Positions 51,511-54,049 of a stretch of 64,000 nucleotides of DNA are shown here, in pieces. The DNA comes from Symploca sp. SIO2E9. Lineage in GTDB: Bacteria > Cyanobacteriota > Cyanobacteriia > Cyanobacteriales > Coleofasciculaceae. Position 1 is the first letter of the stretch. Each line of letters begins with the position of its first letter. The position numbers and the translations under genes are program-made. The stretch spans positions 1-64,000 of the forward strand of contig JAAHGS010000002.1 in assembly GCA_010692645.1 (NCBI GenBank), in the 5' to 3' direction. The notes under the pieces are model-generated. The model had not been told where the DNA came from and ran no database searches. It saw only the letters and a list, made by a program, of their open reading frames with translations.

Positions 51511-51582
51511 GCGGGTGTAGTTCAGTGGTAGAACGTCAGCTTCCCAAGCTGAATGTCGTGGGTTCGAGTCCCATCATCCGCT
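51511..51582 (+). tRNA. tRNA-Gly (CCC)
   Basis: 72 nt. Acceptor GCGGGTG pairs with CATCCGC (one G-T). D arm TTCAGTGGTAGAA, anticodon arm TCAGC-TTCCCAA-GCTGA with anticodon CCC, T arm GTGGG-TTCGAGT-CCCAT. Discriminator T; CCA is not encoded. Confidence 0.95.
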
Positions 51583-51893: not shown

Positions 51894-53498
51894 TCAAACT
51901 TCCCCTGTTGCTAGCATCTGGATTAGACGAGGCACCCCCGGATCAAACCCGGCAAAATCCCAAGAAAGAGGGTCTTGAGGGTCTACCAGCGTAATACAGT
52001 AAGGGGTTAGAGTCACGTACACTGCTTTGAGCTTGGGATTAACCTTCTGGCGGTACTCGGCTAGCGCCTCGCTAGGATGACGTCTTCCTGCCCAGCTTTC
52101 GCTGTCTGTCCAAAAACAAACTACATCTGCCTTAAATCGATGGCGAATCATCCAGTCGTAAGCAATAGAGGCATCGGTTCCACCGAAGTTTTGGTTGCTA
52201 GCTTTACTGATAGCAGAACTAAAGCTATCTTTGCCAGTGATGCCTAAGTTACGAAATTGAGTGGAAAAGCCGCCAATCATATAGTTTTTCTCAGCTTTAG
52301 CTGTCACCAGTGCCATGGTGGTGGCAATTTCACAGCAACTCAAGCCCACTGAATCTACGACTCCATAAGACATTGAGCCAGAGATATCGACAGCGTGCAG
52401 GAATACTTTACCTGTGGGTTCAACTACTTCAAAGGAAAGTTCAACCGCCTTTTCCAGAATCTCCACAATCGGGGCAACTGGTTGCCAGGTTTTTTGACTA
52501 CGCCCCAAACGTCCTCCTGATTGGTAGGTTTTGAGGGCTTTGAGGACATCAATGGGGTGAATCCGTCCTTGGCGCAAGCACTTTTTGCTATTAAGGATGG
52601 CTTGGACACGCTTTAGATTTTCTGGTGCGTCGGCACGCAATACTCCCAACTGTGTCAGCGAACCCAAATTGCGCAGCATCGCGCCAATAGGCATTTCGTT
52701 GAATAACAATTGCCAAGCTTGCTTATTCATTTTACCCACTGGTGCAGCCATTTCGTGGGTAAGATGACCTTTAGCGATCGCTTGATTAGTTTGCTCTGGA
52801 TTTCGCTTGAGCCACTCGTACCACCAAATCTGAGTTAGTGCCGGGGTTGGGATTTCTGTCGGCAGTTCTTGCCAACCCTTTACAACCCACTCAAACAGCT
52901 GTTGGTGTTCGGCGCTGGGAGGCTTGACATGGAACAGGCGTAGGGCATCTCGGTGGGAAAAGCCATGGCGCTGCTGGTATTTGAGTAACTGGTAAGCTAA
53001 GCCTCGGGCATCTTCCCGTGAGAGCCAGTTTTTCCCTGCTTCCCGAACCACCTTGCCAAATCCTCGCAGGGCTTTAGTATAGTTGAGCCATTCGTAGAAG
53101 TGGCTGCCAGTGCGAACTACTTGCCCAAAGATTTCCTCGAATGCGGCTTTGGCTGCTGGTTTTTCCCCCATTGATAGCAGTACTAGGGCGAAAATGGGGG
53201 CGCTGTTGTTAATTGCTCTGCCATCACTAGCATAGAGGATTTCATGAGCTACTCGCTTGGGGTCTTTTGCGATCGCTTTACGCAAAACTTCGGCAAAATC
53301 CTTGGTTAATTCTCGCTTACCTGCATAGTAGGTACTTTGGGCTGTACCAACTAGTAAGCAGCGCCGCAGTAGTTTCCAGGTTCCGGCGTTGAACATGAAG
53401 CCGGCAGAACGACCTTGAATCATTTCTTGTTCCCGCCCAGGGATGGGCTGACTTTGCGCAGTGCCAGTCTTATCTGAAGTGAAGAATTTGTAATTCAT
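51894..53498 (-). CDS. rsr: TROVE-domain (Ro60-like) RNA-binding protein
   Basis: 534 residues, the length of Ro60. A ring of helical HEAT-like TROVE repeats covers residues about 30-365 (GRSAGFMFNAGTWKLLRRCL, KRVAHEILYASDGRAINNSA). A vWA domain follows with the metal site DISGSM near 373 and GGTDASIAYDWM. In bacteria Ro60 (Rsr) binds Y RNAs and misfolded RNA and tethers PNPase, aiding RNA turnover under stress. A tRNA-like RNA gene lies 39 bases upstream on the same strand, which fits. No rtcB/rtcA is in the window. Ribosome site before ATG 53498 is weak. Confidence 0.92.
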   Translation of the reverse strand: MNYKFFTSDKTGTAQSQPIPGREQEMIQGRSAGFMFNAGTWKLLRRCLLVGTAQSTYYAGKRELTKDFAEVLRKAIAKDPKRVAHEILYASDGRAINNSAPIFALVLLSMGEKPAAKAAFEEIFGQVVRTGSHFYEWLNYTKALRGFGKVVREAGKNWLSREDARGLAYQLLKYQQRHGFSHRDALRLFHVKPPSAEHQQLFEWVVKGWQELPTEIPTPALTQIWWYEWLKRNPEQTNQAIAKGHLTHEMAAPVGKMNKQAWQLLFNEMPIGAMLRNLGSLTQLGVLRADAPENLKRVQAILNSKKCLRQGRIHPIDVLKALKTYQSGGRLGRSQKTWQPVAPIVEILEKAVELSFEVVEPTGKVFLHAVDISGSMSYGVVDSVGLSCCEIATTMALVTAKAEKNYMIGGFSTQFRNLGITGKDSFSSAISKASNQNFGGTDASIAYDWMIRHRFKADVVCFWTDSESWAGRRHPSEALAEYRQKVNPKLKAVYVTLTPYCITLVDPQDPLSWDFAGFDPGVPRLIQMLATGEV

Positions 53499-53536
53499 TG
53501 GTCAAGATCCAGGCTCCATGGGAGCAATTAAGGAAG

Positions 53537-53660
53537 GTGGCGGAGCGGGATTCGAACCCGCGATTACCCGTTGTATAGACGATAACCCTCGATTCTTCGG
53601 CCCAAAGGGCAAGGGGTGAATAAGGATGTTTGGTGCCTTAACCACTTGGCTACCCGCCAC
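53537..53660 (-). ncRNA. tRNA-like RNA, probable Y RNA (YrlA-type)
   Basis: On the minus strand: acceptor-like stem GTGGCGGG pairs with TCCGCCAC; TA; D arm GCC-AAGTGGTTAA-GGC; T arm GCGGG-TTCGAAT-CCCGC joined directly to the acceptor strand. Between D and T arms are about 70 nt instead of the normal anticodon region, with a GCCC-TTT-GGGC hairpin and a stem TTATCGT/ACGGGTAA. Length 122-124 nt, no canonical anticodon arm. It lies just upstream of the Ro60 gene. Bacterial YrlA RNAs are known to mimic tRNA and to be encoded next to Ro60. A T-run (TTTTTT on plus 53665) is on the 5' side, so transcription runs toward rsr. Confidence 0.7.
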
Positions 53661-53848
53661 ATGCTTTTTTAACTTTGGTTGGGTTTTAAATGTTCAATTG
53701 TAGTTATCTTGGGCATTGTCTGTTTCTCACCTCCAATGCCCTAAAAATCAACTTGTAGTATTAATGTAGTATGCAATTATGCGAGTGTCAAGTGCTAGAA
53801 CACCAAAATCTGATAAACTATACCTTTGTAAGAATAGTTTTTAGACAC

Positions 53849-54049
53849 ATGTTTGTTGGTAGCACAGAAGCAGCGCACCTCATGGGTGTATCTCCGAGAC
53901 GAATACGCCAATTACTCTCCGAAGGCAGAATTGAAGGAGCCTTTAAGATTGGAAAGTTTTGGATGATCCCCCTGGTGGAGGGCATGCCACAGGTGAGACC
54001 GGGAAACAGAGGACCAAAGGCAAGTTGGTGCAGTACAAGTAAATCTTAG
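53849..54049 (+). CDS. Small helix-turn-helix (excisionase-like) protein
   Basis: About 66 residues. FVGSTEAAHLMGVSPRRIRQ then LLSEGRIEGAFKIGKFWMIP is a MerR/Xis-type winged HTH. ATG 53849 begins directly at the domain; the open frame back to 53771 has no motif. A Uma2 gene follows after 43 bases on the same strand; such pairs may be remnants of mobile or toxin-antitoxin-like modules. Function is inferred from the fold only. Confidence 0.75.
   Translation: MFVGSTEAAHLMGVSPRRIRQLLSEGRIEGAFKIGKFWMIPLVEGMPQVRPGNRGPKASWCSTSKS

Follow-up and report, generated by a model that had tools for sequence, protein, structure and literature searches.

The window (the whole stretch of 64,000 nucleotides analysed here) encodes on its minus strand a Ro60/Rsr orthologue of 534 aa with TROVE and vWA domains (51894–53498), identified by domain and structure-profile matches. 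The open reading frame, 53498–51894(-), matches vWA_Ro60 (8e-35) and TROVE (4.9e-18), and aligns over its full length with Deinococcus Rsr (2nvo, 1.2e-71) and Xenopus Ro60 (1yvp, 1.1e-70). Residues K170, R174 and H187 of Xenopus Ro60, which we take to be contacts with Y RNA, are conserved in the window protein. On the same strand, 38 nt from the ATG, lies a tRNA-like element (53660–53537), and a short leader hairpin (53508–53527) is found between both, over the presumed ribosome-binding site. A first inspection of the DNA without database searches (the sequence-only reading) had reported a full-length TROVE gene directly downstream of the tRNA-like RNA, and this arrangement is confirmed here. 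A promoter-like site at 53791–53763 was discarded, being at chance level (1 found vs. 0.9 expected).

The tRNA-Like Body and Its Insert

The minus-strand sequence of 53660–53537 comprises an 8-bp acceptor stem, T8 and A9, a D arm, a long insert and a T arm, just as the sequence-only reading had described it (acceptor-like stem of 8 bp, D arm, and T arm with TTCGAAT). The 5' strand of the acceptor stem, GTGGCGGG (53653–53660), includes G-1, which pairs with C73 of the 3' strand, TCCGCCAC (53537–53544); CCA is not encoded. The D arm (53635–53650) carries GG in its loop, and the T arm (53545–53561) reads GCGGG-TTCGAAT-CCCGC. A remnant of the anticodon stem, CC (53632–53633) paired with GG (53567–53568), closes the Y module (53580–53626), which lies inside a stretch of ~70 nt replacing the anticodon arm and consists of the 3' strand of helix H2 (TCCTTATTC), an ACCCC bulge, the H1 hairpin TTGCCC-TTT-GGGC, a bulged C, GAAGAATCGAGGG and GUUAUCG; a small hairpin, CGT-N7-ACG, follows GGUUAU (53569–53581). 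The hairpins formerly noticed in these ~70 nt are the Y-stem module itself. Judged from its sequence, and without binding data, the order of the insert (5'-H2 3' strand, ACCC, CUUGCC, loop, GGC-C-GAAG, H2 5' strand, GGUUAUCG) is that of the Ro60-binding stem of a Y RNA, with a short loop bridging the open end of the stem.

The Rfam tRNA model (RF00005) matches 53659–53537(-) with 40.9 bits, above its gathering cut-off of 29, leaving 63 nt as an insert where the anticodon would be. The element resembles a canonical tRNA in its acceptor, D and T arms and in the TTCGA of its T loop; unlike a tRNA, it has no anticodon arm with a 7-nt loop (absent according to RF00005, ARAGORN and the alignment of relatives), and ARAGORN calls no tRNA at it, the sole report in the window being a tRNA-Gly (51511–51582). 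The fusion of a tRNA-like domain to another functional RNA module also recalls tmRNA; nonetheless, no tmRNA match was obtained in the window and the element contains no mRNA-like reading frame. Metazoan Y RNAs (RF00019) are likewise partners of the Ro60 ring, but they end at the Ro60-binding stem and lack a tRNA-like domain. Compared with hY1, a bulged C and the lower-stem motif CUUG/CCGAAG are common to metazoan Y RNAs and the element.

Model R1 scores 117.7 bits at the window element vs. 49 for the best ordinary tRNA of the same genome, where the element is present as a single copy; the training set of R1 contained the window element, so that these scores attest to consistency and are no independent discovery. 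By itself, the predicted fold does not stand out thermodynamically (z -1.15), and therefore the evidence for the window element is comparative; single-sequence folding was set aside as uninformative.

Covariation Among Relatives

Every helix of the element covaries. A first alignment of 38 diverse elements was made with MAFFT and its structure drawn by hand, with no lean towards the model: 95.4% of the cells are paired and both partners vary in 21 of 32 pairs; no measure is attained by more than 1 of 500 shuffles, and a slide of one column lowers the pairing to ~50%. A second alignment, in which 112 distinct elements were aligned to the covariance model and which leans towards it, gives 94.8% of paired cells and both-side changes in 30 of 37 pairs; none of 500 shuffles matches the observed values, and slid registers are far lower. 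Both-side changes affect all eight acceptor pairs, the four pairs of the D arm, 4/5 of the T arm, 4/6 of H1, 6/9 of H2 and 2/3 of the small hairpin, whose outer pair is weak. The eighth acceptor pair, G-1:C73, is real: it is paired in 96 of the 112 distinct relatives, with both sides changed in 22. The anticodon-stem remnant is C-G in 57 elements and U-A in 35, among other changes. Several G-U and non-pairing cells are present in H2, and pair 84-122 is unpaired in 23/112 elements.

As an observation apart, the T loop of the proximal element carries a short repeat-like insert in four relatives (L063:2819-2963, L068:2813-2961, L087:2818-2964 and L104:2817-2963), that of L063 being GTACCCTACGGGAAGCAAGCTACAA.

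Relation to YrlA

According to the literature, the two ends of YrlA pair into a stem and its tRNA-like domain links Rsr with PNPase (PMC8394870), and Salmonella YrlA can be matched to tRNA only once it is circularly permuted (PMC11472068). The cyanobacterial element and YrlA have in common the vicinity of Ro60, the acceptor, D and T arms, and a Y stem with GNCGAAG...GGUUAYYG. The two differ in topology, however: YrlA has its ends held together by the Y stem and a loop over the tRNA-like acceptor, whereas the cyanobacterial element has open tRNA ends and a loop over the Y stem. Among the features by which a YrlA can be recognised, location near Ro60 and a tRNA-like domain with D, T and acceptor arms are present, and a conserved Ro60-binding motif in the Y stem is met by sequence and structure shared with phage RNAs, with no binding data; a Y stem built from the 5' and 3' ends around an internal tRNA-like domain is not, as the arrangement is the reverse and the acceptor covaries at the ends. 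In the YrlAs of phages encoded beside Ro60, GCCGAAG...GGUUAU(C/U)G precedes the T arm, after which come an acceptor closed by a loop, the D arm and the second strand of the Y stem; the signature GNCGAAG...GGUUAYYG upstream of the T arm is common to the cyanobacterial elements and these RNAs of canonical topology. If the cyanobacterial sequences are begun at the H1 loop, the order of YrlA therefore results.

Model R2, built from 26 cyanobacterial sequences rotated in silico in this way, finds RNAs of canonical topology beside the Ro60 genes of the phages Gordonia GMA2 (72.0 bits), Mycobacterium Cane17 (62.9) and Streptomyces Comrade (49.4), as well as beside Ro60 in an actinophage-like contig (L160, 56.3) and in contig C179 of genome G044 (53.8). 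Tandem ordinary tRNAs, used as a control, reach 32.6 bits (L116) and at most 25.9 within arrays, and thus roughly 17–40 bits come from beyond the tRNA parts. For three weaker cases (L114, 36.5; L167, 34.2; L170, 33.0 bits) the score alone does not separate them from the tandem-tRNA control.

The Rfam YrlA model (RF02553) gives no match to the window element at E<=10 because the topology differs, and none of 18 genomes exceeds its 69-bit cut-off. Across genomes, it mostly matches tRNAs or tandem tRNAs, with 13 of 14 control genomes positive, and sub-threshold matches were not used alone as evidence. Its match to two tandem ordinary tRNAs (L116:1482-1663, 44 bits) is not accidental: the permuted topology makes such false positives systematic. 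Of the two Rfam comparisons proposed by the sequence-only reading, that with the tRNA model was positive and that with YrlA was negative, owing to the circular permutation; its wider suggestion, that the tRNA-like RNA belongs with Ro60 and is a relative of YrlA, is supported by comparative evidence, Ro60 binding being inferred. The permutation itself, and the tandem arrays of most relatives, had escaped it.

Two contigs deserve separate mention. L160 (G127:C31:41500-48500), with 17 tRNAs, a YrlA of canonical topology and a Ro60 ~60% identical to those of Streptomyces phages, is probably an actinophage contaminating a cyanobacterial assembly. L159 (G044:C179:9000-14600) combines on one contig 23 arrayed tRNAs, Ro60, a Y RNA of canonical topology and one or more tRNA-ended chimeras, and is possibly a phage contig in the bin.

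Linkage to Ro60, Arrays and Alternative Layouts

In a sample of 386 genomes of the phylum, Ro60 of the window type was found in 32 (vWA_Ro60 E-values of 1e-35 to 1e-41), and all 32 carry the element above 60 bits under the covariance model, on the same contig as Ro60 and ~3 kb apart at most. The only other genome above 60 bits is G044 (67.5 bits), with a different Ro60 type on the same contig; ordinary tRNAs under the same model reach at most 55.6 bits, over 73–74 nt. The hypergeometric p of this co-occurrence (~6e-46) is nominal, phylogeny being ignored. Among named genomes, 80 loci with window-type Ro60 were gathered, all labelled cyanobacterial; nearly all have the same element just 5' of the Ro60 gene, and every match listed sits on the Ro60 strand. 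A lack of conservation beside TROVE genes, which would have refuted the sequence-only reading, is hence contradicted by the 32 genomes, and the check it proposed, a test of covariation on the same locus of other cyanobacteria, was positive. In a few loci, such as L092, an intact copy was not found in the stretch examined, and scans of IMG/VR for window-type Ro60 and for the Y-module pattern gave nothing usable.

A structural scan of the loci yielded 241 candidates, including a few spurious matches, usually as 2–7 tandem copies per locus on the Ro60 strand. Such arrays raise the question of whether the functional RNA is a canonical YrlA spanning the junction of two copies, the single tRNA-like unit not being the product. 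Each junction does read as a YrlA-like RNA, with up to 95 bits under R2 (L113), a high score being expected from a model derived from those same sequences, and Rfam YrlA also matches across a junction of L120 (31.7 bits). Nevertheless, the genome of the window has only one copy, and acceptor strands pair 7/7 within 93% of the units vs. 20% across junctions. Since acceptors pair within units and there are genomes with a single copy, selection acts on the tRNA-ended form as the unit, and a junction-spanning product is considered very improbable. The junctions do suggest, by inference, that one topology could convert to the other by duplication and later loss of the flanks.

Besides the permuted layout of the window (class 1), two others were recognised, and neither these nor the arrays are features of YrlA. 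Class 2 (20 examples) has the H1 hairpin first and then both H2 strands around a large loop, with the tRNA joined at the bulge; three of its H2 pairs show both-side changes. Class 3, present in at least 49 of the 80 loci, is located 3' of ro60, lacks the D arm and has a variable-arm-like hairpin. Such a D-armless element downstream of ro60 is seen in most Nostocales loci (e.g., L037:4680-4788 and L052:4650-4758).

Regarding neighbouring sequences, a HEARO RNA (RF02033, 87.2 bits) was found at L034:149-370, near a Symploca ro60 locus. The window's own genome contains a second, broken ro60 with a nearby HTH_17-like ORF similar to window 53771–54049 (L001, C350:8293-11484), which points to an ancient segmental duplication; that locus yielded no tRNA-Y element.

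The ro60 Leader

The leader hairpin of the window, TTGCTCC-CAT-GGAGCCTGGA (53508–53527, minus strand), is supported by motif counts, folds and pair counts, and is a candidate autoregulatory site. Its consensus, UUGCC[CU]-loop-[GA]GGC[CU]GG(G)AG, lies between element and ATG, overlaps the Shine-Dalgarno and repeats the H1 end of the Y module, including the bulged pyrimidine. Of 81 leaders, 72 contain the strict pattern of hairpin plus Shine-Dalgarno, against 1.5% of random 45-nt windows, the leaders being related and the counts not independent; the pattern misses the variant of the window itself, whose Shine-Dalgarno (CCTGGATC) is weaker than in most relatives. One pair of the leader shows 13 compensatory cases, but a +1 slide scores about as high as the true register; leader covariation is only moderate evidence and was not counted as proof.

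In 28 of the 32 cases inspected, the proximal copy and the ATG are 35–39 nt apart. This constant spacing and the hairpin over the Shine-Dalgarno could be explained if the element acted only in cis, as a tRNA-like leader giving the ro60 mRNA a regulatory signal or one for cleavage by RNase P, with no trans-acting Y RNA. A TROVE-domain gene of Chlorogloeopsis fritschii PCC 9212, which rises "dramatically" with erythromycin "for unknown reasons" (PMC6424891), would agree with this; it is probably the counterpart of the Ro60 gene of strain PCC 6912 (L041), which carries the element, orthology being inferred. Against a role in cis only, many copies sit hundreds of nt upstream of the gene, the D-armless copy lies downstream of it, and the module matches Y RNAs, so that this explanation keeps even less plausibility than the preceding one, without prejudice to cis and trans roles, which can coexist.

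The Insert and the Published tRNA Introns

The insert is the most conserved part of the element: CTTG.C, the short loop, GGNCG and A.GG.TTATCG are invariant or nearly so among relatives, as seen in alignment A1. The tRNA body is variable, with 50 different acceptor sequences and, in L125, tRNA-Leu-like D and variable regions, and one Y module is common to many different bodies. Of all alternatives, the least credible is an ordinary tRNA with an intron in its anticodon loop, as published for two cyanobacterial genes: RF00005 matches the element, but ARAGORN does not call it, group I intron families give zero matches there at E<=10, the anticodon stem is only a 2–3 bp remnant, and the conserved insert recurs in many tRNA bodies while being confined to Ro60 loci. 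The outcome named beforehand as fatal to the sequence-only reading, an intron-bearing tRNA, has accordingly not materialised.

The published cases are "group I introns" in tRNA-Gly of Nostoc PCC 7107 and tRNA-Lys of Gloeocapsa PCC 73106 (PMC5733544). Their position and shared motifs (CTTGxCT, AAGxC and GAAGAAT) fit the Y module, and they appear to be misread Y-module RNAs; the intron reading is probably mistaken because 22–49 nt are far too short for a group I intron.

A Probable Circularly Permuted Y RNA and Its Possible Function

The element is, with high probability, a circularly permuted, tRNA-ended Y RNA partnering the Ro60 encoded 38 nt downstream, the binding being inferred. Its structure, conservation, linkage and permutation relation have been established computationally; transcription, processing, CCA addition, Ro60 binding, the effector and autoregulation are inferences. 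The Y stem, capped by its short loop, occupies the anticodon position of an otherwise ordinary, open-ended tRNA body. Element and ro60 may be co-transcribed, after which RNase P and a 3' endonuclease would excise the RNA like a pre-tRNA, and CCA would be added. The Y stem is predicted, from the motif and the conserved protein residues, to dock on the Ro60 ring via its conserved bulged-C/CUUG and GGUUAUCG region. By analogy with RYPER, the tRNA-shaped end might be shown to a partner, probably PNPase or a tRNA-processing enzyme. The processed ro60 mRNA would then start with the leader hairpin, which covers the Shine-Dalgarno and mimics the Y stem at its H1 end, and unoccupied Ro60 could, hypothetically, repress its own translation through it. 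A broader proposal is speculative and rather unlikely: Ro60 would have families of partner RNAs, with the Y module in many tRNA bodies and three connectivities, whose tRNA ends (CCA, often HisRS-type G-1:C73) let tRNA enzymes charge or read them, Ro60 acting as a sensor of tRNA status and its own translation being fed back via the Y-like leader.

These results add cyanobacteria to the range of Y RNAs, with a form that escapes current models, offer a natural circular permutation of a tRNA mimic for which tandem arrays are a plausible route, and probably correct a published "tRNA intron." The topology, the alternative layouts and the arrays are provisionally regarded as new, an earlier description of cyanobacterial Y RNAs not being excluded. 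Picosynechococcus PCC 7002 is a tractable model strain with Ro60 and three copies on plasmid pAQ7, and the contribution of Y RNA topology to the function of Ro60 is thus directly testable; these three tRNA-Y elements (L163, 3041–3444) are unannotated and located upstream of SYNPCC7002_RS15900.
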